Positions 40,701 to 61,000 of a stretch of 64,000 bases of DNA are shown here, piece by piece. Positions within the stretch are counted from its first letter, which is position 1, and the number at the start of each line of letters is the position of its first letter. The notes beneath the pieces are model-generated. The model had not been told where the DNA came from. It saw only the letters and a list, made by a program, of their open reading frames with translations, and ran no database searches. A program made the translations under genes and the position numbers. The stretch is from Brachycybe producta (lineage: Eukaryota > Arthropoda > Diplopoda > Playtdesmida > Andrognathidae): the NCBI GenBank assembly GCA_036925085.1, contig JAUPFP010000001.1:7664688-7728687 (forward strand), read 5' to 3'.

Positions 40701-43700
40701 TCTGGTTTCACGTGATAATGCATGCTTCATTGGGCTTTACACGTCCCCTTTTTTCATGCGCACCTACTGTATAAGATGTCCGACGTTTGCTTCGACAAAT
40801 GGGTCCAGCTACATCGACGTCACTCTGGTTAAACGAGTCACTAGCTCCAGCTGGATGATACTGGAGGAGGACATGCTGAGCGACCTCAGAGCCATCAACA
40901 TCCAACTAGACTGGGACTCAAGAAAGGAAATCAGGCCAGGCTTCGCATGGAAGAAGGCAGACTGGCAGCGGTTCAAACAACACGTCAGGGACAACCAACT
41001 ACACCTGGAGGGCCTAACAGCAGAAGCGGCAGCAACGGAATTTCAACGAATTTGCATCGAGGCCTGCGTGGCCACGATACCGCAGCGGGGGAGACAGTCC
41101 ACCCACAAATGCGCATGGTGGGACCGCGACCTGCAGTGAACGAGAGGACAGGTACGATCTCTTCGGAAGCGGTACCAGCTAGAGCAGGACAATGAAACAA
41201 GGCAAAGGAGATTGAACGACTACAGGACGAAGCAGCAGACATACAAGAAGCTAATCGCGGAAAAAAGCGGACTTCATGGCACTCCTTCTGCCAGCGAAAC
41301 ATGCAGGAGGATCCATTCAGTCTACCCTACAAGATTATGGCGGCAAAGCGGAAACAGACACCAATGATGACGACAATATGCAGAGAGGACGGCAATTGGA
41401 AGCGGACGAAAGAGGAGACAACCAGAGAGCTCCTCGTCAAATACTTCCCGGACGATGACGAGACTGAGGATACCACACAGCAGCAGAGCATACGACAAAG
41501 GATGCACAGGAACGACAGAGACACGCAGGACGACCCACCCTTAACCATGGACGAGCTGGAGGAGACAGCCTCGGGCTTCAACGTCTCCAAGGCACCTGAA
41601 AGAGATGGCTTTCCGGCCGCGGGGCTGCGGCACCTAAGGGAGGCAGCAGGTAAAGTCTGGCTGGAAATAATCAACCTATGTCTCTTACAGGGCGTCTTCC
41701 CCAAGACCTTGAAGAGGGGCCTGGTGGTGTGGCTCCTGAAACCGGGGGGGGGGAGGACTCCGGCCAATCTGCTTGCTGCCCACAATCGGGAAGGTGCTGG
41801 ACAAACTATGCACGAACCGACTGTGATACTTCGCGGAGACGAACGGTGGCTTCTCAGACAGACAAGTAGGATTTCGGCGGGGACGACGGACCATCCAAGC
41901 CCTCGAGTGCTATGTGAGATGGGTTAAAACAGCCAAACAACGGAAGGAACATAGCCTTGCAGTGGCCCTGGACATCGCCAACGCATTCAACAATGCCTGG
42001 CACCCAGAGATAGTGGACGAAATGAGACGACTAAAATGCCCAGGTAACCTTCGCCGATTAATAACTAACTTCCTACAGGGGAGAGTGGTCATCAGCGGAG
42101 CCACATCCCGCCACACAACGAAGGGCTGCCCCCAGGGCTCCTGCCTGGAACCAGTCCTGTGGCTGCTGCTGATGGAGTCTTGGTTCTCACCGGTGGATGC
42201 AGTCCTCTCAGAGGACAGAGTCCAGGCCTTCACGGACGACACCGTTGACTGCACCGAGTGGGCTTCGCTACTGAAGCTCACCATTGCTCCCCAGAAGACG
42301 GTGGCCCTTTTCCACCCGGCAGCAAGAGTGCTCAGGGCTCCAGTCATCCGCATCAATGGGACGCGTATCTCGACGTGCCTAGGGGTGATGATAGACGCAA
42401 GCTTCAGGTGGATGGACCACACGAAATGTGTTCAAGGAAAGGTACGTGCAATAGCTGCGCATCTTTTCAGAATGGCAGGCAAGGAGTGGAGCCATCATCC
42501 CGATGGTCACATACGGCGCAGAAGTGTGGGAAGAAAAGGCAGGGGATACACTCACGACAAGACATCTGGATGCCACGCAGCGACCGTACCTTCTAACTAT
42601 TTGCAGGGCTTATAGGACGACGGCATATAGGTCACTGCAAGTCGCGGCTGGCTGCCCACCGCTGTCCGTGGTGGTGTCAGCTCGCTTCGAGCTGTGGAAA
42701 TGACGGCAACATTTCGCAGCGCAACTAGACAGACCTATGGAGGAGAGAGAAACAGATCACCCAGGACTAAGACTGAAATTTGCAATCCAACACTGGACAA
42801 AAGATGGGATGGAGGAAATGGACATTGGACTATACACGGACGGCTCAAAGATGGACGGCAGGGTGATGGCAGCATGCATCACGGTGACGAACGATGAGGC
42901 CGCAAGGACATGGTCAACGTAGCTGCCAGATACATGCACCGTCTTCCAGGCGGAGCTAGCAGCAATAGCGGAGGCCACAAGCATCGTCGGAGAAAAGACA
43001 ATCTCCTGGTGGAAGGTAAGCATTTGTTCCGACTCACGCTCTGATTTGCAGGTGGTGGCGTCAGGAGACAGCAGGTACCGGACGGCCTACGAGGCGCACA
43101 GGAGGATGGCACTAGAAGCGGGGACAGCAGTCCAGTTGATGTGGATTAAAGCCCACAAAGATCATGTGCATAACGAGCAAGAGGTCGCAGCAGCCACAGC
43201 AAGACGACTGATGGCCACAGTGAGGCCATACTTGACACCGATCTCTTATATCCGAAACAAGGTGAAAGCCGAGCTGAATATCCATTCGCAGAAGATGTGG
43301 CATGAGGCGACCAAGGGACGGCCGCTATACAGATACCTCCCGGAAGTCAGGCGATCGGGAGGGCTGTTGTCAGGTAAGCTACTCCAGCTGCTAACCGGGC
43401 ATGGCCCTTGCCAAGCCTATCTCCACAGGTTTCGGCTAGCAGAGGCAGCGGGTTGTAGATGTGGACAAGGAGACGAGACAACGGAGCACATCCTGCATGA
43501 CTGTGTAGACCCACGGCGAGCGGCTGCAAGGGCTACACTCATCAACAGACTGCTGACGAGCGGCCATCATTGGCCAATTGACGATGGAGCAACTCTAGAG
43601 GACGATAGCCTCAGGAGCACACTCCTGAAATTCTCAACGGTGGCAGTTTTTGACGACTTTCAAGGCGACGACGGAAGGTAGGAAGGTAACGCCCTGCAGT

Positions 43701-46700
43701 AAAAGGGTAAGGAACGAGGATAAGAGGATGGCTCGGTGGCGGGATTGACCAAATGCGGCAATACTCAGCACTCAATCAGAGGATAGGGTTCGGGTTTGCT
43801 GGCAAAGCATGGTTGTGGACTGCCGATGGGTTAAGGTGATGGACATAGACGTAAGGGTCTTCTTTGGGGGACACACAGCATGATGTGCCACCGGGTGGGT
43901 CCGGGCTGGTTTCGCCAACTCGTATCCTGAGACGTTGGCTAGCATGGAAGTATGGTAGTCTGAAGCTCAGGCCTAATGCCTATCGGTGAGGGGGCCACAC
44001 ATATTCCTGTATAAGATGTCATGATTTCGTGCACGAAAAAATGTGCATGCATTTTAGTGACAAAGTTCAATCGCGCGCGATTGAATGCACAGTCTTCATC
44101 TCACAGAAAGCAGTATGCTCTCGGGCATGCGGGAAAGCACCCGTGTGCAAAGCCTCCTATGATGTTATTCACTTAATGACGTGCAAAATGTGATAACCTA
44201 CCTCTGAAGTTGAAAGCACTTCCAATATCTTGTCTTCAATTTCTTTTAGTAGCCGTTTGTTGTTGGCCCCTTCAACAATTAAAATATTTTTTCTTTCTTC
44301 AAGCTCCGGTTTCTCCTTTGCGACAACACTTCCTAAAAGTTGATCTTCTAATCCAATTGGTGTTATAGTAAAATTTAATATTGTCATCTTAAAAAGGAGA
44401 GAAACATCAACATTTGTGTGTATATAGGCCTACAGTCAATAATAACATGAATCAGACAACACCTTCGCAAAGACATCAGGTAAATAATGTGGATTTGGCA
44501 ATCGAGTGGTCATGTAGAGTCTAAAAGATCCATTGTACTCTATGACATTGTCGGCTAAGCGAATGTATTCAATGGCCCCTTTCTTAAATGTCTGTTTCAG
44601 TAGCAGCGGATGTAACAAAGGATCAAGTTCTTCACCGACATCTTCAATCAGAACAGGAATTCCAAGTTGTATACAGCGATCCAAAACACGAACATAGTTG
44701 GGATCTGACAATCTCACAACTTCTATGTTATTGCTTTTCTCAAAAGATTTTATCCATTTATTGGCTTGTCCTAAAAATAAAAAAGATGTTATTTTAAAAA
44801 TTTTAAAAATTTTAAAAAGACTTCTAGTTAACATGTGTCAATCTCATGTAGAGACATAAACATTATTTGTATCCATGATCCTTATCCTGAACATAAACAT
44901 GGAGTGCTGGAAGATCTTGCCCATTGAAACTATGAGTGACCACTGATATATTAGTATGAGCATTTTTACTGGACATTAAATAGAAAACAGCAGTCTGGGG
45001 AAAGTTTAAAGATTGGGTTGAAAGGGGCATTGAAGGTATTGAGTTTTTCCCCGTAGGGGAAGAAGCTAGTCTCCATCAACAGATAATAACTCAAGCATGT
45101 AAAATATCTATGGAAGGCAACACAGGATAAAACCTGTGTGGTGGTCTCAAACCCTTCAACAGTGAATAATCAAAGTTAGTTAACTTAGGAAGAGATTCCA
45201 GAAGGCTACTGACAGTGGGGGAAAAACTAGATTATCTGGGAAGTTTATGGCCCAGGCACATAATGTGAGGGGAGGTGTCCAGACTCCACCCCAAAAATGT
45301 TTTTGAGACCTATTTGTATGTTACTCAAAAATAAAACTAAAAAATAAAAGATTTCTTCTCATAAATATGAAGCTAAAACATATAACAAAGAACACAGTAA
45401 AATTTGTGAGCATTCAATAAATTCTCAACATACAATTGCTTGAGAAAATCCTAAAGTTCGATAAATGATGAAAGACAAAATAAATAAATAAATAAATGAC
45501 GAAAGATAAAATATCTCAACTGTAGTGGCTCAAATGGAAGGTGAATCACATAAGCTACTAAATTATAAGTTTAAAGCAAGTGGGGTTTCCTGCAAACAAT
45601 TTTGTTTTTGTGCAGAAATACCAATTCTAATGAAGCCTAACTATGAAACAAATATCACTATTCATACATGAAACTTAAAAACAAACATACCTTGTGGATC
45701 AATCATAAGCGGCCATCGACGCGAATTTGTAACAATTATGCCGTTGTCAATAGAAAAATTATCAACAGGCAATCCAGCGATTGCCCAAGCCCTGATTTCT
45801 ACCAAATTTCCCAATGTGTTAATAAATGAGTATGGCTCCGAACATGGAATTTTTAGTTCTCTACACATATGAAGCCACTGTGAAATGCATTCCTGACGAA
45901 GTTCAGTAGTGAAGGTTCCCAAATATGCTATGATACCAGCCGATAAAAGAATATCTCCAACAACGTTGCTAAACTGGTTAGCTAAACTTAAGGCAAGGGC
46001 ATTCCACCGGTCTTTCTCGCCTCCTAAACCACCAATTAACTTCTCAGCCCTTCCGAGTTTTTTGCAACAAAGTTCGATGCTGTCTTCCAGGTCTTTTTTT
46101 TCCTTTGTCTTCTTAATAAATTCATCATTCAATATTTGTAGTTTATCTGTCACCTGTTAAACAAATATTTAGGCAAAAATTAGTAACCTGTCATAAAGTT
46201 TAACTGACTTTTTTTAAAAAAATAAATCTAACTGAACGCCTGTTGACCAAGGAGGTCACTTTTACCTATGTCAGATGGGTGGATTAGAAACACCTCAACC
46301 ACGTCCACTACCAGGCCTGAAAAGAGGGCTAGGGCATGGGGATTTTTCCCTAGGCCAAGACTTGTATAATGGGCTTGGAAATTTAAAAAAAAAGTAGATA
46401 ACTGCCTACAACAGACAGGAGAGATTCTGTGTTAAGGGGCCCAGGAGGATAATCTACCCCAGGGCCCGAGCTGGCTCGCTATGGCCCTGTCCACTCTGAA
46501 TTGGCCTAAATTTTGAATACCACATGGTACGCGTGGAATGAAGGCATTCTTGTCTAGCCGTCTTCACTGAGAATGTAATGCATTCCACGTGTCCGGTTCT
46601 CGCTCTTCCGGTTCACACGTGCAATGAATTTTCAAAGTTTCATGAGCATCTATAGAAACACCTCAAAAAAGTCCACTCTGAATTGCTCTAACTTGATGAG

Positions 46701-49700
46701 CGCATTACATCCAGAAAATGATGATATAGTTGTGACACCCTGTATTTCACCGCTTTGTCCCTCCCCTAGCCTGGGGGTCTCTGGGGACGTGGGGGACGGA
46801 TTTCCGCCCTTTCCTTCCCTCTTGGAGACCCCAAAGCTTCAAGACTCATGCAGGTTCCGGTATCGGCGGATGGATACCCGTCGATGCACGGTCCCCAGGG
46901 CATGTGTACCCCTGAAAAGGTGTACACAGGCCCTGGGTATAAAAGACCGTGTTTCGATAGATTCTTGGTCCATTCTTTGATATCGAAACATGAAATAATT
47001 CATCAATGGTCCAGTGGCGAAAGCACGCCACAGTAACTCTTTCTCTGTTATTCATGTGTTAATGGTTGGTCATGAATAAATAAGTATCGACGAACCTATC
47101 ATCCGTCTCGCCTGTCTAATGATTCTTTTCAGCTACAGTGACGAAATCAAGAAATATCTACGAGAACGACCCCAGCACCAGTAGGACTCAGGTTGTATAA
47201 CACAGACGATCTCTTAACAACAAGCGGTACCCGCTCGAGTTAAGAGATTCTACAACTGAGCCCCGTAACAAAAGCTCGACATTGTTACATTTGGTGGAGG
47301 TGCGGGGTACCTCAAAGATATTTCTTCGCTGCTGTGAAGAAGAGAAACGTCCGTCCGTCCAAAAGTAAACACGCCAATTGCCACGTGTTTTCTTCGTCCG
47401 TCCTTTTTGTTTTTCGTTACTTGTGGGAACCACGTGTACGAATTGTTGGGGCCATCCTACTAACCTAGGGCTCACAAGGGAACAACAATTCCATCCACGT
47501 GCTTCTTTGTCTTCGTTCAAGAGACTCGTAATTATCAGACTGTTCGTCAGCCTCCTTTGGCAGAGGGAAAACTCCGGGACTGCAGCCTGTGAACTACGAA
47601 TCTCCGTCTTCTGTGTTTTTTCGTACCTTTTTGTGTATTCCACCACCTCCTGGATGTTTTCCTTTCGTTACCACGTGGCCCACCTCATTGAGACACCACC
47701 ATCAACGGAAGGGAGACAACCAAGAACTTTAGAGCCGTCATCATCATTTCTTTGTGCACTGTTCATCAAAATAAAGTCGGTAACCGACCCATTCCTTTCT
47801 TCTTCTTAGCCATTCAGCTACTAAAGAGGAGTCTTTGTTCCTCTTACGTACTATTAGCCACGTGGGGTGTATACAAATACATCACTCCGGTAGCTCCGAC
47901 TGCTCCAAGAAAAGAGGGGAGTGGACTTACAAGACTTTATTTCGATTTCGTCACTTCATCATCCTTTTGTGCCCAAATAAAGTCGGTAGCCGACAATCTG
48001 TTCTCCTTTCTCGAAATCTACACTGCTGGAAAGTGAATCTCTCTTCATTGTGCTATTAGTCACGTGGAGTGTATCTAATTCACTGCTCCGGTAGCTCCGA
48101 TTACTCTGAGAGAAGAGGAAACATCGATTTGTAACTTTATTTCCGGTACATTTTCGTTTTCTTGTGTTCTTCTCAATTGTGCTTCTTCTTGTGCTACAAA
48201 AATAAAGTCGGTGACCGACCTCCTGTGTTCTTCTCATCAATCTACACTGCTGAAGACTGAATCTCTCTCCATTGTGCTATTAGTCACGTGGAGTGTATTT
48301 AATTCATCACTCCAACAGCTCCGATTGCTCCGAGCAAAGAGGACAGCCGGTAAAAACTTTATTTTTTTTTGTACATCTTTCGTTCTTTCTTCGAAAAACT
48401 TCTCATCCACGTGGTCAAATACCATTTACCACGTGGTTTTAGAGGTTATTCACCTCCTTTTTCTGGGCTTCATTTATTTAAAGTCGGTCTCCAACCAATT
48501 TTCTCTTCACTCCGATCACTCCGTGTGCTCCGAAAAGAGAAAAATAACCGGTTACTACTTTTATTCATCCTACAAGCCTCTTCTACCCACGTGGTCTTCT
48601 TTTCCATCATCCCACGTGGTGTTTCAAGAGGTTATTAACCCTAGAGACTAGATCGGTAGCCGATCAACAACATAAATAAAGACTGTTTCTGCAATCCTAC
48701 ACTGGAATCAGATCTGGACACGAACTCTATCGCACAATCAGTACGATATCATCCCAGATCTGTTCCCCATCGTTTAGGACTACGAAAAACACACCCACTA
48801 CCTGGACCATCGACAACAATGGCCCAAGCATCCAACCCACAGCTAACACTCAACGGTGGAGAGGGTTCTAACAACCCTCCTCTCAACCCAGATCCTACTC
48901 AACCCTCGCAACCTTCTCAAACTTCTCGTTCTTCGCAAACTTCTACGCAGACGCTGCTACCTAGACAAGGCCATCGCATCCTCTCAGGAAGTGATACATC
49001 GGACGTGTCCAACGGCAGCCAGGGTGATCATCGCCCAAAGCGGAAGAAGACAAAGACACCGAAGTCACCCCAACCAAACCTCTCGCAGCCAGAAAACATG
49101 GATCTCTCTGAAATCATCAGGCTTTTGTCCGCCCTGGGAACCCAGCTGACCACTCAGCTGTCTACCAGTCGCTCTAAGCCAGGATCATCACGGAGTAGAC
49201 ACCCATCTACACCTCGAGAGACCGAACCTCAACGATACTCGAACCCAGAGCCACAAATAGACCACCACCGACCAAGCACAAGTTCCTACGAACCACTGCC
49301 TGCAAGGAGGACCTATCCAATGACTCCGGGACCTCCGAGGACATCGACAGCTCACCAACCCTACCCTGAGGCTCGACACCGGGAAGCGGATCGACCGCGT
49401 CCCCGACCAATCGAGCCTAGATATTATGACTACACCTCAAGCGGGTCGGACAACGGCGGTGACCGCCCGAGTCCGCCTCTCGACGACTATGACCGAAACT
49501 CCATTTATGCTCCGCAATTTCCTCCTCGAGAGCGCCGCCACAGGGACCAAGGGCCAAACCCCAATGCCATAGGGCGAGGCCAGGTCCTGGATGGTGTCTA
49601 TAGGGCACCACCCAGAGTACTTACTGTGGAGGAGCTCAATAAGAAGTATGGAAGCCGCCACCCTGCCGACTCCGTTAAAAAGTTCGATGGGTTAGGCTCC

Positions 49701-52700
49701 TTCCGTGCCTTCTTGGAAGAGTTCGAAGAAGTTGCCAATCTGCATCGATGGGATGACCACCACAAGGAGGACTTCGTAACTACCTGCTTCACCGGATCAG
49801 CTCGCTCGTGGCTCAGCAAGCTTCGCTATCGCCACCCTGACTTGACCTGGTCTGAACTCAGGAAGAGGATGACCTCCGCTTTCGGCAAACCAAACGAACG
49901 AACTCTACTGGAAAAACGCTACTGGGAACTACGCCAAAAGGAAGGAGAGAGCACTCAGGCCTTCATTTGGAAATTCGCCGAATTAGGGGACAAAATTTAC
50001 CCTGAACTGTCCGACGAACTCCGAATCAACCAGCTCCGACGCTCGCTCCATCCGACGATCCAAGACGCAGTGGACTCCGCCCCAACACATTCATTCAGCT
50101 CCTTCAAAGAAGCTGTACTAAGAATGGAAGCGATCCTCTACTCCAAGGATAAGTGGCCCCTAGCTCCGGAAGCAGTAGATGGCCTTCCAGAGAGTAAGTC
50201 AACTAAACCCGATGGGGAGCAACGTGCGGTGACCGCACCAGCTCCTCGAGACAACCGACCTAGACAACCGAATGCGAGAAGATCCTACACTGCCCCACAA
50301 CCTAAATCAGGGGGTCCACAAGCTCCAATAAGCTCGGCCCCTGGCCCTCGCCGCGATGCGCTGGTAACGACCATCGACAAGAGCAAGGCCACCTGTTATC
50401 AATGTGGACAACTAGGACACTTCTCCCGCGAATGCAAGCAACCAAAAAGGAATTTGGAAGTGAAACAGTATGGAGGAATCGTTGAACACCCAGGGGAGGA
50501 CCTGGCTGAGACTGATATTATCAGCGAGGATGGTATCGAATATGCCCTCATCAGTTTGGGAGGACAACTTCGTAAAATCGCCCTCGAAGCTCCGCCACCA
50601 ACTCCTGTTGTAGAAGACATCATCGACGATTCCGAAGACTACTTACCCATCGCAGTCATCAGCCCATCCGCTCATCCCAAGCTGGAACCCTGGACTACCA
50701 TAGACCTGGGCCTCTGGAATGAGATAATGGAAGCTTTCGACTCCGCCAATTCCAATTTCGGTTGCCGAGAAGACAGGACAGTTATGATCATCACACCTGG
50801 AGGCAAAGCTCCCAAAAAGGGGCGAGCCTGTTGCCGAACCATGATGCAGGATCTGTATCAGAAACTAGCAGCCAGCTGTGATGTGAAAGAACTTGGGGCC
50901 CACGACGCTAGTCTCAACAGCCCCCGGATATTGGTCTCCATCAATGGCCGAGAAATCCGGATGCTGGTAGATACAGGAGCCCATAGCAGTGTCCTCTCCG
51001 AATGCATCGCGAACGAACATGACCTCAGAATCGAACCCATGCCAAGAGCTCCAATGATTGAAGGAGTAGGAGGTGCCACCATCAACATAGTGGGCCAAGT
51101 CAATGCTACAGTGGAAGTTGGTGCAAAACGTGCCCAAGGACCACTGTATGTCATCGAAGGACACCGAGAAGCCATCTTAGGTCGTGACCTAGGAAAAGCT
51201 CTTCACCTCAGTGTCTCCATGACCACAGACAAGGTCTATTGTGAGGATGACCTCTTCAACTCCGTTCTCCGTCGCCAATGTGTGGAAGCCTATGTGGGAA
51301 GTGCCCTTCAGGAACAACCACCGTCTGACAACGGCAGCAATCTATTGGAACTTAAGTGTACACAGCGGATCGAGCAACACCTAGTAGTGTTGAGCCACAC
51401 CCGACTTAATGGAGGAGGAATCGCCCTAGTGGAGGTTAAAGCCTCAAAGATGTTGAAAGAAAGTGACTTCTTCGTCATCGTACCGGATGAAAAACTCAAG
51501 GCCGACCGAGGAATTTTCGTGGCACCTGGTCTTATGCAAGGCCAGAACGAAGCCACCTTCAAAATCGAGGTCTTCAACACCAACAAAACGCCGGCCACCC
51601 TCCAGAAAGGCGAAGTATTGGCTCACATGCAGTATGACTATGACTGGGAGGTTGTAGCGGACACCGCTACCATCCCAGAGCAATCAGTGTCGGTGACCGA
51701 TCCTGAAAAATTGGAAGACCATGTTCCGGTGCGGGAACCGCTCCGAAAAGGTGGTTCAGAAACGCAGAAAATGGAAAAACTCAAAAACTCGAGGACGAGT
51801 TTCTTAGGGAAGGAGGGGGGAGAAACAGAGGTGGACACCAGCCCACCCCTACAACCAACAGGACCCAGACCACCCAACAAATCCCTACAACCTACCATAC
51901 CTCAAAATTTTTTTGGAAACGAATCCTCTGGAACTCCATTTGCAAAAGAACCACCCACCAAAACTTCCATTCCATCTAAAAATGCAAAACTCCACCACAA
52001 AAAGAAAAGACTCAAAATAAAAACAACAAATTCATCGTTGGAATCTGCCGCTAAAAACAAAGCGGAAATAAAAAGTGAAATCAACGATGGAATTCCACCA
52101 AAAATACTCACTCTCAAGACCATCCACGTGATTGAAGACGAAAAACCACGTGTCCAGCACATGGAATCATCAAGATCAACGTCCTCAATCATAAACATCA
52201 ACAAAATAGTAGCGGTAACCGCTACCCACGCTTTCAAACATAAAAATCACGTGGCCACAAAAGAAAACTATCTAAAACATCGTAATCCCCCTCTCATGAC
52301 GTCACATCAAAAAGAAAAAGTGAACTCAGTGACCTACTTATGGTTTCAAGTTCAGATTTTCGGTGGGAAAGTCAAACATCTAACTCTTCACACCCTGATG
52401 CAAGAAATGAAACTACGTCATCACCGATGGGAATTAAAACACAAAATCGGGGCCATAAAAGACATCAAAACAAAGCCCCCTGTCAATCAAATCAAAAAAA
52501 TTAATTGGGCCAATCAAGACACCCCTTATATCATCAAGGGGCCCAATCATCAACCAAAATCGACATCAACCCCACCAAAGGGGCTGACCCAACCCTTATC
52601 TCTTTTAATGTTTTGCATAAACTCCATTTGTGATCAAATCGAATCGGTGACCGATTCTCCACTTGTTCAAAAAATTGCGACACCACAACATCCGGAAGTT

Positions 52701-55035
52701 TTATGTTTTGAACAAAGAAATCTATCAACTCATGAAAATTTGGATAAAAAGCGTCAAGGGATTCCTAAAGAAAAACAGGACAAATACCTATCTTCAGCTC
52801 CGAAAAACGTAAGTCTTGAAAGAGGTGGTGGTTATCCCCCCTCTAACAAAACTTTTTCTATCCCTGTTTTAGTATCAAAAATGCCAAAATACAATAGAGG
52901 GACGTGGAGGGGACGCCATCGCCATCCTAATGGCTCCTCTAGTGACGAAGAAGGGGGTAATGCTAATCCTACCCCCTTATCTCCTCCAGTACCTATGGAA
53001 GTGGGTGGTGAACAGGCGGGGGCCGCCCCACCACCCACTGAACCTACCAAGACTACCAAAACGACTACGATTGTGCAGGCTCATGCGGGGACCGCTAGTG
53101 AGCCTGTCACAAGATCATCATCACCACATGACTCCCAGCATCGTCGCCACTCCGTGCCTGAAAACTTCCACCGGCGCGGAGAAAAACGATTGAAGACATC
53201 TTTCCGACGCCCAGCCAACGTGGGTCGCGAGGGAAAACCAGATATACCCACTCTTCTGGTTCCCCTCACCGCCGCCAATTCAAAGCACTGGACTGAGGAT
53301 CGAGAAGACCGAATCGACGTCTCGATCATGCCCCTGGGACCACCCAAGGACTACTGGAAGAGTCTGGCTCCTGGTCAGATGATTCCAGGAGGAGCTGAGC
53401 CCTGGGGGAAGGGATCATCCGGGACGACACTACCAACAGAGACCGAGAAGGAGCAGCAGCGCCTCGACGAGGAACGATGCCATCGACTGAACGAGGAAGC
53501 CCGCATCGAGGGAGAACGCAACAAGCGATACCTCCAGATGGCTTGCCTCCGCCTCCAGGAACTGGGCCTACCATACACAGCCCCGCTTCCCCAGGAGGAG
53601 ATCGACAGAATCAAGACTCTTCTCGCTGCAGAGGAGCGACAGGCTGCGGGGACCGCGGCTAGCCACTCCTTACCTCCAACACCACCTCAATCGACTACTC
53701 CACCTACCACCGGCCCGATTCCACCAGCGCCCCAACAAGGGGCCATTCCAAAAACTAAAAAGCCGCCACCTAAAGAACGGCCCTCTGAGGATCGTCACAA
53801 GTCCAAGAGGGACTCTTCTCCGAAATGGCACCGCTCTCCGCCACGTCACCGCAGTCACCACCATCAGGGCCACCGGGAGTTCCACCGTCGGCCACAAGAC
53901 CTCTGTCACCACGCCAAGGCTGGAACCCAGGGGAATCGCCCGACCATTCGACCACTGATGGAGGTACCCATCGAAAAACCGAAGCCTGTGCCTCGACCCC
54001 CTGGGGATCCTCCCACCGCCACTTCAGCATCATCATCATCACCTGCTGCTGCTGAGAGGGAATATTTTCTCTCTCAGCAGAAGAGAATGACGGACTTGGT
54101 CCTGGACTTCGCCCGGCGAGGAGGAGACCCCCGTGAAGCTTTGGGGATCCCTCCCCTCGAGGACCGGCCACCAATCTCACAGAAGTCCCAAAAGAAGAAG
54201 CCAAGACAGCGCGCCCGGGACATGGCCCGTGCAACTCTGTTTCGGGCCCAACGTGCCCAGTCGTCTGGAGATGCGGGGACCGCGCCTCCTGCTTCCATCA
54301 CCGACCTTCCAGTTGCAGATGCGGGGACCGCGCCTGCAACTCTTCCCGAGGACTCCCCTGCCACCACGACCACAACTCCTGCCGCTCCTCCCGTGGTGAC
54401 CGCCAGGAGGAAGACACCCATCTACAGGCCACTCCGCCTGGAATCTCTACAGGAGAGGTTCCTTAACAACCGTTGGGCATTATGGCAAGGACAAACGAAG
54501 ACGACCCAGACCCTCTACGTTGGACACTACGACCTGGAGGAGGGATTCCCGCACCTGGAGCTCCCTGAAAAGGAACGGTACATCGTCAATATGACGCGGG
54601 ACTCAGCCCTCTTCTCCGCCATCGTGATGCCCCGGCGAAAACACATCGAAGTGTTCCAGTTCTCCGGGGACTTACTCACCACTGCACTCCAGGCCGTAAT
54701 GAGGTCTTTCTTTAACACCATGTTCGGGACGCCAGCCGAGGGGGCCTACAGAGTCAGCCGCAGTTACCTTCGCGGGGCCCAGCCCAACCACCAAGCGGCC
54801 ATCATGTTCGACGGAGTTCTGGGAACCCTCTATGAACGACCTCCGGCCCGGTCCACCCAGTCCGACCAGGAGATCTACCAGGGGTTCTTCAACGACTTAC
54901 AGGACCACGTTGACGGATGGATCGTCACCGCTTGGGATGGGCAGCAGCCGTGATGTGTGTGTCTTCGCGCATTGCCTCACCTTTTCGGGACTGTGTGTTC
55001 TCTCGCGAGGGACTACTCGCGGGACATTCGGAAAA

Positions 55036-55080
<45 letters not shown>

Positions 55081-58000
55081 TAATAAAAAAAAAGGGAAAA
55101 CGTGCTTGTTGTTGTGTTGTCCCTACTGTGTTCTTCGTTTTGTTCGCGAGAAACTACTCGCGAATCTTTCATTCATATTTTTTTTATTTTTGGTTTTTGT
55201 ACCCCGTTGGGTTTTTGTTCCAGTTTACCTTTTTTTGAAATTCATATCTTTGCACCCCGTTGGGTTTATTTTCCTTCTTTATTCATTATGTTCTTACCCC
55301 GTTGGGTTATTGCGTTTTGCCCCGTTGGGCTTGGGTTTCATTGTATTCTCTTCTTAAAATATTGTATGTTCACCCCTACCCCGTTGGGTTTTTGCGTTTT
55401 GTTTCTTGGGTACCCCGTTGGGTTTCCTTTTCGTTTTTTTATCCCCCTCGTTCCGGGGATAATCATTTCCTTTTTTTCTTGTAATGTTATTTTTGACTTG
55501 TTGAAGGGATGGTTGATACGAACTGCATCAACCTCTCTTTCAACATGGATGTACTCATTAGTGACATGCCGAACCACTGGACCACTTCCCTAGAACTGCA
55601 GTCTGTGGCATACCTCCCGGCTCTGAAGCACGAGGACGTGCTTCACGCCCAGTTGGGGGGGTATGTGACACCCTGTATTTCACCGCTTTGTCCCTCCCCT
55701 AGCCTGGGGGTCTCTGGGGACGTGGGGGACGGATTTCCGCCCTTTCCTTCCCTCTTGGAGACCCCAAAGCTTCAAGACTCATGCAGGTTCCGGTATCGGC
55801 GGATGGATACCCGTCGATGCACGGTCCCCAGGGCATGTGTACCCCTGAAAAGGTGTACACAGGCCCTGGGTATAAAAGACCGTGTTTCGATAGATTCTTG
55901 GTCCATTCTTTGATATCGAAACATGAAATAATTCATCAATGGTCCAGTGGCGAAAGCACGCCACAGTAACTCTTTCTCTGTTATTCATGTGTTAATGGTT
56001 GGTCATGAATAAATAAGTATCGACGAACCTATCATCCGTCTCGCCTGTCTAATGATTCTTTTCAGCTACAGTGACGAAATCAAGAAATATCTACGAGAAC
56101 GACCCCAGCACCAGTAGGACTCAGGTTGTATAACACAGACGATCTCTTAACAACAAGCGGTACCCGCTCGAGTTAAGAGATTCTACAACTGAGCCCCGTA
56201 ACAAAAGCTCGACATTGTTACATAGTCTTGCAGACTTCACTGGGAATATGATATGCATTCAACGTTTCCATTCCGCTTTTCTGGTTCACATGCAATGAAT
56301 TTTCGAAGTTGAAGTGTCGAAATTACATTAATTTTGGCAATTTACTTCCCAACGTTGAATGAATTAAAAAGATTTTTTTAACTTGTAATTAGCTTAAATT
56401 GTAATAAATACCGCAAATTACTAAACTAGGTAACTCATTGATTTGTTAGAGTAATTATTCAACGGTTCACCATGTACAACATCAGATATCCATTATCTGA
56501 CAGCAAAATAAAATCAAATATTTTACCAAAACGTATTCTGTTGACACCCCCCCCCCCCCCTGCTAGGCCTATGTGTAAACAATATCATTTTATTAATATC
56601 GTTATTCCAGTTTGGAACTGTCTACCCCAAGATGTAGTCGATTCCTCTACAACAGCCATACTTACTAAATGTGTACAAAAATGTAGAGCTAACAAATTGG
56701 CTCCGGGAACATGCATCTTGTGGCTCTTAGGTTTCAATCATTGTTGTCATATTACGAAAATTGGGATTTTTGCTATTTTCCCAAATTAACCTTTTTATTA
56801 TTTTACTTGTTCGAAATGATCTTGACGAAGCCTCGTGAAAGACTTTTTTATTCTCTTTTTTCTTTAAATTAAATTAAGTAAACCATACTTTATATCGTGC
56901 TTTCTGATTTTGTGTGCATTTGTTGTAAAATTTTCCTGCATTTTACTCATTTATTATTATGGTGGTACTCTACATGTATCTTCATAATTCTCTGTAAACA
57001 ATTTGTTGTTTAACAAAAGTCATTTAACAAAAAATACACAGAATGTTACCTCTTGCAATTGGCTTCTTTTCTTGTTCAACTTTTCCATTTGTTTTCCCAA
57101 ATCTGTTGCTGCTTTTAACAACTTTTCTTTCTTTGGTGCCACTATTTTTGCAACTCTGTCATAAACTTCTATTGCACATATCCACTGACAAAGACCTTCA
57201 CATGCTGTCGATACATTACGAATAATCAGTGGATCAAATTCTGGATTTGGAATGTACCTTGACAGTTATGAAAAATATATATAAACAAATGAGTAAGGAG
57301 GAAGTCTCAATTAGTATAACTCACTGCTGTCGAATAACTTTCATGATTGAATGAGGAATGTTATCTTTGTCATACACTTTAAGATTTTCTAAAAATTTCA
57401 GATCACCAAGCATTTTTTGCGACGAACTCCAATAGTCTTGTACCATTTTTCCAGTTCCACCCGCTTCACGTTTTCGCTCAGGCTTAATGCCTTTCATAAT
57501 ACAGATGGCTTCCATGACTAATTTTACACCAGCCGGAGGATTCTAAAAAATAAAAGGCAATTGACAGTTTAAAAAAGAATAACTTAATAGTTCAAGCAAT
57601 CGGCTTTTCAAATTCGATTTATATAGGAAATAAAAGGGTATGGTCAACGTGCATAATGAACAAGATACTCAGGCAGCACGCCAACAACGAACCAACGTAA
57701 TGCCAATTACTGGAGTTTATATAAAGATGTTGGCCTAATGATCCGGTCAACATTGTGTTTGGCTGTACTCCATGGCCCAACGATAGCTGAACCTGTCATC
57801 AATGACTGATATAATTTTTGGGCCATAGGTAATTTTGCAGCAATGGGCCAACATTAAGTGGGCCATAGGTAATTTTGCAGCAATGGGCCAACATTAAGTG
57901 GGGCAAATGCATTTTTGCAACATTAGGCCAACATTAAGTGGGCCATATGTATTTTTGCAGCAATGGTCCAACATTAAGTGGGCCATAGGTAATTTTGCAG

Positions 58001-61000
58001 CAATGGGCCAACATTAAGTGGGCCACATGCATTTTTGCAACATTGGGCGAACATTAAGTAGGGCAAATGCATTTTTGCAACATTCGGCCAACATTAAGTG
58101 GGCCATACATTTTTTGCAACATTAGGCCAACATAAAGTGAGCCAAATGTATTTTTGGAACATTGGGCCAACATCAAATGAGCAATTGCTGGGCAAAAAGA
58201 TTGTCCCCAGATGCCGACGTTTTGCCAACATTACCAACAAAAATTTGTAAATTGGGCCAACATGTTGTGCTACTTGGGTAAGTTCATTATTAACAAATAT
58301 AATGTTAGCACTTAAAAATAAAGCATTGTTCGGCTTGAAATGTACTTAACATTGGAGTTTCCAAACACAAGGCATCTGTGACGAAATGTTACAAATTCCA
58401 AACTGGGTTTTTGTGATAGAAACTTGCCGACAATCATTCATAAATTAATTATAATAGTCGTTAACATTAGAAAGATTTAACTAAGCTTATTGTTTTTACA
58501 AAATAATATGAAAATTAATACCCACACTTGATTTAAAAAGTATTTCAATTATAAAGTTGTCATTTAATTAATAAAAAAGGTTTCGAAGAAAAGGTAATAT
58601 TATGACTAACATTGCACTAGCAAAAATCACGCGACACTGATGTAAAAAAAGCTTTGAATTAAGGTGGCTGAATAGATGTTTATTTTGTTTTTGTCTCCTC
58701 GGATGGCGCCACTGCTGTGGATAATAATGTTATGTTACAGTATATAGACGTTTTTTTGAAAAATTTGGACGCAAAAACGTCAAACGAATTTTGTTTAAAA
58801 ATTGAACGTTATGAAAAATTTAAATTGTTTTCAAAACTAGAATGGCAAATGATTATGTTAAACATTTTATCTTTAAAAACTAAACAATTTTATAATAAAT
58901 TGGGTCTTAAAAATGATCCGTTTTTTTTTTCGTTTTTCTATTGACATTTCATGAACAATTATTATTTTCGCCTTTTTTAAACTGTCATAAAAAGTTTATT
59001 TTTAAAGATATCATTATGAAAATACTTTTAGCATTATCACCAGCTAGTTTAGTTTCGATAACATTTTGAATTTGTTTCATAATATTTCTCCTGAAAAACG
59101 TTTCCTTGAAATATATAAACTTTCTCAAAACCGTGGGTGGATGTGAAGAAACCTCCTATAGAACATGCTAGCCACATGCTAGCTATTCAGCCACCTTAAA
59201 AAAATAAAATATCATAGCTTACATTGCGTTAGCACAAGTCATGTGACACCCATGTCAAAAAAAGTTTTATATAAAAAAACCAAAATTGTATTTACCAGAA
59301 GAAAAATAAATGCCACAAGGTGACACACACAAAATTTAAAATGAACAAATCATGCAATGTTTATGTACCTTCATAGACTTAATTAAAGTTATGTCCTGTG
59401 GCTTCAGTGTATTAAGTGCCGCAATGGCACTCTCCAATGCTGGTGTTGCCTCAACCAAATCATTTTCACATTCATCCTTAATAGCTTGAGCTTCAGCAGC
59501 TGCTGCATTAGCCAAAGCCTCATCGGCTGCCACCACCTCCTTTTTGGCTTCGACTCCAATTGTGTCCTGTTCAATCTTGATCATCAGTTTCTCAGTTTCT
59601 TCTGTTGTTTTAATTAGTTTAGGTCTTTCTGCAGTGAGCTCGTCTTGCATGACAGCCACCTGAGCTGAAGCAAATTCTAATTTTTCGAGGCCAACAATGT
59701 AGCGATTATGTAGCATGCAAATTTCATTGCGTTTCTTTTCGAGAAGTTCAGTGAAAGTGAAAATGAATTGCAAATACGAAGTAGGCGTAACATAGTTATG
59801 TCTCCTTAAATAGGCATAGTACCTGAGAAGTATTTGTAAGAAGAAGAAAAAAAAAACATTTTAAATTATAAACTCTCAACAATTTCTTTACAAATAAAAA
59901 CCATCTTACTTCTCAGACAACTCGATAATGCTTTTATGAAAATGTTGACATATTGTTACACACTTGAATTTCAAGTCAGCATCAAGATCACAATCTGACA
60001 AATACCTGTCAGCCACCATTTCTAAAGCTTCATTCGGCCATGACTAAAACAAAAACAAAAAACAAAATAAATTTTAGGTCCTGCAATATTAAATAATACA
60101 CCCCTAACACTCAAGAGGCAGGATCCCCACATCAAGAGCTCTGACAAAACACAAACAAAACAAAAACTCAGCGTTTCGAGAAAAAAATTGGCCAGGAACT
60201 CTAAAACACTTCTTTTTGTTTTGTCAGCAATTTCACAAACAATTCATTGTCCCGGCTCATGTCGGTAAACATCACAAGGTTTCTGTTTTGTCTCAGTACT
60301 ATGCAAGATTCTTTAAACTTTGTGCATTGTGAGCAGTTAGTATTAAAACAATGTTCAACAAAACAGAGAAATAAAACACTTCAAAGCAACACTAAAAACA
60401 ATTGTGCACTTCTATGTGGACAGCTATAGAAACACAAAACAAAACCCTAATTTGTTTGTGTTGGTGTCACAAATTTGTTGTGGGTTTGTCTTAAGAGTAC
60501 TGCTGACAGTCGTTTCAGTTTTGTTTTGTTTTCAAACTCTTGCTTTTCCTTGCGTTTTTTGTTGTGTTTTTGTCTCGAACTCATGTTGTACTTTTGTCAG
60601 CTTGATGTGGACCCCACCTAAAATTGTATTGTACGGTGTAATAATTAGGTAAAAAAACATGTTACTCATTAAATTGACCAATTAAAAAGTCATTAATGCA
60701 AATGTAAGTTCCAATTAAAAAATGAGAAGGGAACCAAAAAATTCTAAAATTATTAATTTGGAAGAAGATGTCTAAAAAAACCAGCACAGACCACCAGGCA
60801 ACAATCATCGGACATCGGACACACGTATCCAGCGACTTCACATTTTCATTAGACATAAAACGACTTGTATCCGGATACATGTGGCCACTGATGTTGCACA
60901 TCCAAACCAAATTTAGTATCTGTTGCTCGGTTCTGCAATGGATACGTTGACCGCAGGTGGTGTTAGTGCTGCATTTGGTATTCGCTTCTAGGTACTGATC

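Follow-up and report, generated by a model that had tools for sequence, protein, structure and literature searches.

Why should one small hairpin recur about every 500 bp through the long terminal repeat (LTR), leader and coding sequence of a retrotransposon? The question is raised by a stretch of 64,000 nucleotides from Brachycybe producta (assembly GCA_036925085.1, contig JAUPFP010000001.1, positions 7,664,688 to 7,728,687), which we call the window. All the hairpins sit in one LTR element of the Ty3/gypsy type, on the + strand at 46731-56222. The exact pattern CGG-N3-CCG occurs 19 times in the window, always between 47225 and 56158, and is absent from the remaining ~54 kb. Because the last occurrence (56158) repeats the first in the 3' LTR, 18 sites precede the 3' LTR: one in the LTR, four in the leader and 13 in the open reading frame (ORF). 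In the whole 295.3-Mb assembly the pattern is found 20,983 times, about once per 14 kb, and its reversed form 23,769 times. A preliminary description of the sequence had listed about 15 dispersed hairpins with this core. Fourteen of its coordinates proved exact and the fifteenth, 54393, is a variant with a U.G wobble; four exact cores, at 50759, 51658, 51732 and 53017, had been missed (Table 1).

The number of sites exceeds what composition and coding predict. Dinucleotide shuffles gave 0.14 expected cores in the leader, where 4 are observed, and 1.6 in the ORF, where 13 are observed. The single LTR site (0.12 expected) is not significant alone, and the 710 nt 3' of the ORF hold none (0.13 expected). 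The 13 ORF sites compare with 2.1 in codon-preserving shuffles (maximum 7 in 2000), and with ~3.2 when protein, codon usage and codon-junction dinucleotides are all kept. For stems of at least 5 bp, codon-preserving shuffles gave 0.2-0.4 against 6 in the ORF, or 0.9 against 11 if G.U pairs are counted. By our reckoning about 15 of the 18 sites are independent; the shuffles take no account of duplication. Sites 54274 and 54322 both lie within a 48-bp coding repeat, and 47778, 47984 and 48209 have the context AATAAAGTCGG in common, near the leader duplication. The motif AATAAAG (47770, 47976, 48201, 48675), part of the leader repeat unit, stands immediately 5' of three leader hairpins and 3' of the fourth.

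Relatives of the element were searched for in the genome; only the best candidates were scored, so that all copy numbers are lower bounds. Many copies have LTRs 97-100% and leaders 98-99% identical to those of the window, with at least 45 leader matches (85 candidates, 40 scored). Four subfamilies, A (the window copy) to D, have near-identical LTR, leader and gag and sharply different 3' halves (L066, L067 and L068 versus window 51777-54953). In A, B and C, a 3' ORF that we call X is fused in frame with the preceding coding sequence, in the position where an env gene would be. Subfamily D (L068, leader 99% identical, open frame of 2287 amino acids) has lost most of X; 3' of its protease, and before the point where its sequence meets that of A again at window 51777, it encodes reverse transcriptase (RT), RNase H and integrase. 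By tblastn these three domains had no match in the window copy, and no Pfam match to RT or integrase was found in the window ORF pieces, pol being missing from this copy. Since D, with its near-identical leader, has pol, the window copy and subfamilies B and C are pol-less relatives of an autonomous Ty3/gypsy element. With such different 3' halves A to D are mosaics, formed perhaps by template switching during reverse transcription.

A second, abundant lineage has the primer-binding region in common with the window element. Its gag is 55-57% identical over a 267-amino-acid query, its gag-protease region identical at 358 of 755 amino acids (47%), and an ORF in the X position is present in both lineages. 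Its copies L061/L065 and L062 gave no tblastn match to the RT, RNase H and integrase of D; copy L069 did match these pol domains. We rejected L069 and L070 as a third lineage, their leader being that of the second (97%).

The excess recurs in these relatives and is specific. Most pieces of the second lineage likewise show more CGG-N3-CCG than expected, and the pol of subfamily D, which the window lacks, has 4 cores versus 0.36 expected. In five pieces from the two lineages together, we counted hairpins whose fourth pair is Watson-Crick and whose fifth is Watson-Crick or G.U: there were 24 versus 1.04 expected, and none of 400 shuffles reached this count. In the same pieces, cores with one G.U (0 versus 1.03) or one A.C (1 versus 0.95) were not enriched, and nine other Watson-Crick cores, as well as loops of 4-8, gave 0-2 each, none significant. 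The enrichment is restricted to the CGG/CCG core with a loop of three nucleotides. When all 3-nt arms with loops of 0-10 were scanned, this pattern ranked first, or second to the overlapping GCG arm with loop 5, in the window ORF, in the gag-protease and following region of the second lineage and in the D pol. It ranked fourth in the window leader, behind CACGTG-related and other patterns, and was not among the top eight in the leader of the second lineage.

A common rule, 5'-N[G/T]CGG-NNR-CCG[C/A]N-3', emerged from the 28 window and L061/L065 sites having a Watson-Crick fourth pair; four second-lineage cores lacking one and the D pol were left out, and the p values treat the sites as independent, though a few are duplicates. 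In all 28 sites the 5' base of the fourth pair is G or U, giving G-C or U-A (p 1.6e-5). The fifth is Watson-Crick in 18, G.U in 8, U-U in 2 and never A.C (p 8e-5 for the G.U share). A purine stands at loop position 3 in 27/28 (p 2.6e-6) and at position 2 in 20/28 (p 0.005). Because the sixth pair is Watson-Crick in just 8 of the 18 window sites (and G.U in none), the stem mostly has four or five pairs.

Covariation was measured on 31 sites aligned by core alone, excluding the near-duplicate 54322 and the 3' LTR copy and keeping the four second-lineage cores without a fourth pair. The score was 0.386 versus 0.111 in shuffles, and 88.7 versus 71.4% of the cells were paired, values attained by none of 500 shuffles; two further measures were weak or uninformative (22/500, 498/500). 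That the outer pairs covary argues against two independent DNA half-sites, and the purine at loop position 3, together with G.U without A.C, favours sense RNA. Local folding, however, does not confirm the strand, since the antisense folds slightly better: by RNAfold in context, the core pairing was 0.65 for the sense strand and 0.80 for the antisense (0.31 for 201 control cores in shuffled ORFs). Considering the covariation, the loop and wobble biases and this lack of strand support from folding, we regard it as very probable that the sites are RNA hairpins, and the sense strand is put forward a little less firmly.

As DNA, CGG-N3-CCG is palindromic and its core is rigid, and it could be that the sites are bound as double-stranded DNA by a dimeric regulator, as the CACGTG boxes of the element might be. 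The leaders of both lineages also have an excess of CACGTG, a typical DNA site (11 versus 0.37 expected in the window, 7 versus 0.63 in the second lineage). Duplex DNA would have no preferred strand, however, and here 27 of 28 loops end in a purine and the wobbles at the fifth pair include G.U but not A.C; nor would independent half-sites covary at the fourth and fifth positions. With strand preference and covarying half-sites found, a dimeric DNA-binding site was rejected, and we consider this explanation quite improbable. The CACGTG motifs themselves, often within CCACGTGG, lie at window 47382-48618, 52125, 52147 and 52248 and at L061 572-2369. They look like either an E-box array, presumably for a basic helix-loop-helix factor, or an RNA self-pairing motif.

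If the hairpins matter, other copies should keep them. Thirty of the at least 45 leader matches were examined: all 23 young copies, the window's own included, keep the LTR site and the four leader sites, and between one and four of these five survive in each of seven older copies. In 22 young copies no change was found in 880 stem letters and 264 loop letters, versus 102 in 32,358 elsewhere; about 3 stem changes were expected, which is weak evidence alone. In the seven older copies the letters differing were 11/260 in leader stems, 15/78 in loops and 925/10,027 in the rest, and 10 of the 11 stem changes fall in CpG columns.

Downstream of gag, A is 74.8% identical to B and 71.1% to C. At the five A sites in this region, stem bases of the inner four pairs were kept 40/40 (B) and 39/40 (C), versus a background of 1553/2076 and 1465/2061, with loops at background (11/15 each). 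Fourfold sites were identical in the stems at 8/8 (B) and 7/7 (C), versus 173/286 and 144/268 elsewhere, and 4/5 sites were unchanged in both B and C, versus 37/645 control windows. At 53647, B and C have loop TAG for GGA and protein AVAA for AGTA, so that every loop position and two amino acids have changed relative to A, with the inner four pairs intact.

Between lineages, two of three gag/protease hairpins have a counterpart at an identical or closely neighbouring position, with compensatory changes. Sites 49457 and L061:3253 occupy the same alignment column, with fifth pairs G-C and A-T and a quite different local protein, and 50227 and L061:4017 are three nucleotides apart, with fifth pairs T-A and G-C. 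In this gag-protease alignment, 50759 and L061:3775 are not in common. As same-column, shifted and unshared sites are all seen, sites have been kept, replaced and moved.

The hairpins could still be a functionless by-product of coding repeats ([AS]-[VDG]-[TA]-[AD]), leader duplications and G+C content. Ten of the 13 ORF sites do lie in one phase, encoding AVTA, ADTA, SVTD, AGAA or AGTA, and the 54274/54322 pair and the leader sites include duplicates. However, codon-preserving shuffles fall short of the observed count, the inner stem at 53647 survives changes of loop and protein, and the hairpin at 49457 stays in its column although the protein differs. A coding by-product was thus rejected on codon shuffles, stem retention and between-lineage sites, and we hold it to be very improbable. 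Both checks named in advance by the preliminary description, an excess over codon-preserving shuffles and conservation in other copies (the leaders and the diverged 3' halves of B and C), were made, and neither refuted it. Its proposal of a repeated packaging or recognition signal is a candidate function, taken up below. Its claim that coding need does not explain the sites withstood the shuffles and the stem retention despite protein change, and the compensating outer-stem changes that it had described were borne out across sites and between lineages.

That stems are kept while the surroundings, and even the protein, change suggests docking sites for an RNA-binding protein, and from the sequence comparisons the sites are most likely dispersed recognition sites for such a protein. 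A core and a loop length that do not vary, with the loop purine, are reminiscent of the way in which proteins read a hairpin tip. Gag is the first candidate reader because the sites span the whole RNA, avoid the Gag and protease Pfam matches of the window, persist without pol and fit the model of dispersed packaging signals: the motif occurs in LTR, leader and ORF alike, it is found in pol-less copies, and the gag of A to D is near-identical. As to function, we tentatively favour Gag binding and packaging, with slightly less than an even chance. In this scheme, selection would maintain 18 sense-strand hairpins of at least 4-5 bp with three loop bases, on average some 500 nt apart along the genomic RNA. 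They would form a multi-site docking platform, a protein, putatively the element's own Gag, reading the CGG/CCG stem end and the 3' purine of the loop. Through many weak sites Gag might then pick out genomic RNA and compact it for virus-like particles, and the RNA of pol-less copies might also be packaged, borrowing reverse transcriptase from the autonomous subfamily. Stated more broadly, we give about an even chance to a genome-wide repeated hairpin code in leader and coding sequence that would serve as a packaging or export address, would be kept and re-placed across two lineages, and would be retained by parasitic pol-less copies for carriage by autonomous relatives.

An export role might fall to X, if the product of this 3' ORF reads the hairpins and so exports unspliced genomic RNA or makes it more stable, in the manner of CERV in the C. 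elegans element Cer1. Both lineages have an ORF in this position. The likeness, by ORF position alone, is with the 3' ORF in the env position of the Gypsy/Ty3 element Cer1, whose genomic RNA needs CERV to leave the nucleus; in the parts of that report available to us the authors ask whether other 3' ORFs act likewise, CERV is made from a spliced mRNA, and an RNA target is not described (PMC10309623). Against X, its C-terminal domain is predicted, by a modest model, to have a Ulp1/SENP-like fold, not an RNA-binding one, and D lost most of X yet keeps leader, gag and pol hairpins. We consider X, the second candidate, unlikely as the reader.

A host RNA-binding protein or RNA-modifying enzyme may also read triloop hairpins, being recruited so that the element RNA is translated, stabilised or localised. 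Host readers of exactly three-nucleotide loops exist: as far as the consulted parts of PMC5908797 tell, the NHL domains of LIN41/TRIM71/Wech recognise a short stem with three loop bases and a purine at position III, and the loop-3 purine bias of the element hairpins is that of LIN41-type sites. However, LIN41-type NHL proteins need a U-A closing pair, for which G-C does not compensate (PMC5908797), and all 19 window sites close with G-C by the definition of the core. The element sites are therefore not LIN41 elements, a candidate that we rejected, one-change cores not being enriched either. A literature search joining the motif words found no paper. A host reader seems unlikely.

Several observations weigh against a Gag-read RNA code. 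Retroviral zinc knuckles usually favour an unpaired G, and some loops (TAA, ACA) show none. The bare-core excess in the second lineage is weak (gag-protease 5 versus 2.4, p 0.07; ORF2 3 versus 1.1, p 0.07), and in L069 a piece of 2.7 kb from pol and ORF X yielded a single stemless core (0.54 expected). One of the four D pol cores lacks the fourth pair, and another has a C-G fourth pair, contrary to the G/T rule. Subfamily D is without the region holding four window sites, and the 54322 site of C is broken in such a way that the antisense strand could still wobble-pair. Finally, no window site lies inside the Gag capsid, CCHC or protease Pfam matches, but this avoidance of folded domains is limited to the window, since two D pol cores lie inside the RNase H and integrase domain matches.

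Table 1. Hairpins and other features of the element (window coordinates).
Feature	Position	Strand	Remarks
Target-site duplication TAGT	46727-46730 and 56223-56226		read from flanks of both LTRs
5' LTR (TGTGAC...GTTACA)	46731..47289	+	exact match to 55664-56223, 0 mismatch over 560 bp, final base by chance
Hairpin, loop TAC	47223..47235	+	LTR, probably U5
Primer-binding region TGGTGGAGGTGCGGGGTA	47292..47309	+	also in second lineage (L061 ~331); 23-bp exact match to L061:328-350
Untranslated leader	47290..48818	+	4 hairpins, 11 CACGTG, internal duplication 48015-48119/48239-48343
Hairpin, loop TAA	47776..47788 (core 47778)	+	leader
Hairpin, loop TAG	47982..47994 (core 47984)	+	leader
Hairpin, loop TGA	48207..48219 (core 48209)	+	leader
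Hairpin, 6 bp, loop TAG	48651..48665	+	leader
Open frame, 2044 amino acids	48819..54953	+	Gag, protease, then, in place of D pol, sequence rejoining D near 51777, then X
Hairpin, loop TGA	49455..49467 (core 49457)	+	gag
Retrotrans_gag	49773-50048		Pfam match in 2044-amino-acid frame
Hairpin, 6 bp, loop TGA	50224..50238 (core 50227)	+	between capsid (CA) and CCHC
CCHC knuckle, single	50391-50441		in 2044-amino-acid frame
Hairpin, loop TTG	50757..50769 (core 50759)	+	fifth pair T.G
Aspartic protease	50934-51188		in 2044-amino-acid frame
Hairpin, 7 bp, loop ACA	51654..51670 (core 51658)	+
Hairpin, loop TGA	51689..51701	+	fifth pair G.T
Hairpin, 4 bp, loop GAA	51731..51741 (core 51732)	+	fifth pair T-T
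Hairpin, 7 bp, loop TAA	52209..52225	+	same site in B, C, D
Hairpin, 7 bp, loop TGA	52641..52657	+	loop TGG in B; absent from D
Hairpin, loop GGG	53015..53027 (core 53017)	+	loop GGA in C
Hairpin, 4 bp, loop GGA	53085..53095	+	fifth pair T-T; G.T in C
Hairpin, loop GGA	53645..53657 (core 53647)	+	fifth pair T.G
Hairpin, loop GGA	54272..54284 (core 54274)	+	fifth pair T.G
Hairpin, loop GGA	54320..54332 (core 54322)	+	fifth pair T.G; in C, pairs 4 and 5 disrupted (A.C, C.A)
Wobble variant GTGG-TGA-CCGC	54392..54404	+	U.G; GCGG in B and C
3' LTR	55664..56222	+
LTR copy of 47223 hairpin	56156..56168 (core 56158)	+	3' LTR

The element was placed among Ty3/gypsy elements on its paired LTRs (559 bp each, identical), primer-binding site, Gag with CCHC and aspartic protease. 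A search of the 64-kb window for tRNA genes found none. The first 601 amino acids of the ORF had no match at E 0.001 in a protein database (7993 candidates scored). A known Rfam family was rejected for the hairpins, as a scan of 46600-56300 gave no match at gathering score; two sub-threshold matches, both at 55001-55150, lie outside the hairpins. Elsewhere, the window holds an RVT_1 fragment at 41914-42615 (E 1e-14), probably of a non-LTR element, and a tandem repeat of period 40 bp at 57779-58155.

What do the hairpins resemble among known systems? For Ty3/gypsy packaging they are a short, uniform and statistically clean candidate signal, and because natural compensatory variants are in hand, RNAs of 17 nt suffice for tests of binding and function. 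If the packaging proposal is true, an RNA constraint would shape the linkers of Gag and its neighbours, and the idea of dispersed packaging signals would extend from RNA viruses to retroelements. In the literature searched, mostly papers free of subscription, we did not find a uniform repeated hairpin in a retrotransposon. In the portions consulted of the Ty1 and Ty3 literature, scattered encapsidation sites are thought likely and the signals are undefined (PMC4974528, PMC11381356), the packaging mark of yeast Ty3 RNA not being precisely defined (PMC11381356). Ty1 and Ty3 are LTR retrotransposons like the present element, but these portions report no uniform repeated hairpin for either (PMC4974528, PMC11381356). 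The closer likeness is with the dispersed packaging signals of single-stranded RNA viruses, such as MS2, and of the hepatitis B virus pregenome, where, as far as the account in PMC6281560 was available to us, many stem-loops follow one recognition rule genome-wide in varied contexts. Multiple stem-loops under one recognition rule are likewise found across the B. producta element, but here a fixed stem core and loop length make up the rule, in MS2 the loop sequence (PMC6281560), and the system is an LTR retrotransposon with Gag as the putative reader. Dispersed hairpin signals are thus known in RNA viruses, whereas a uniform, covarying series that spans the coding sequence of an LTR retrotransposon, and whose function we infer, would be new.

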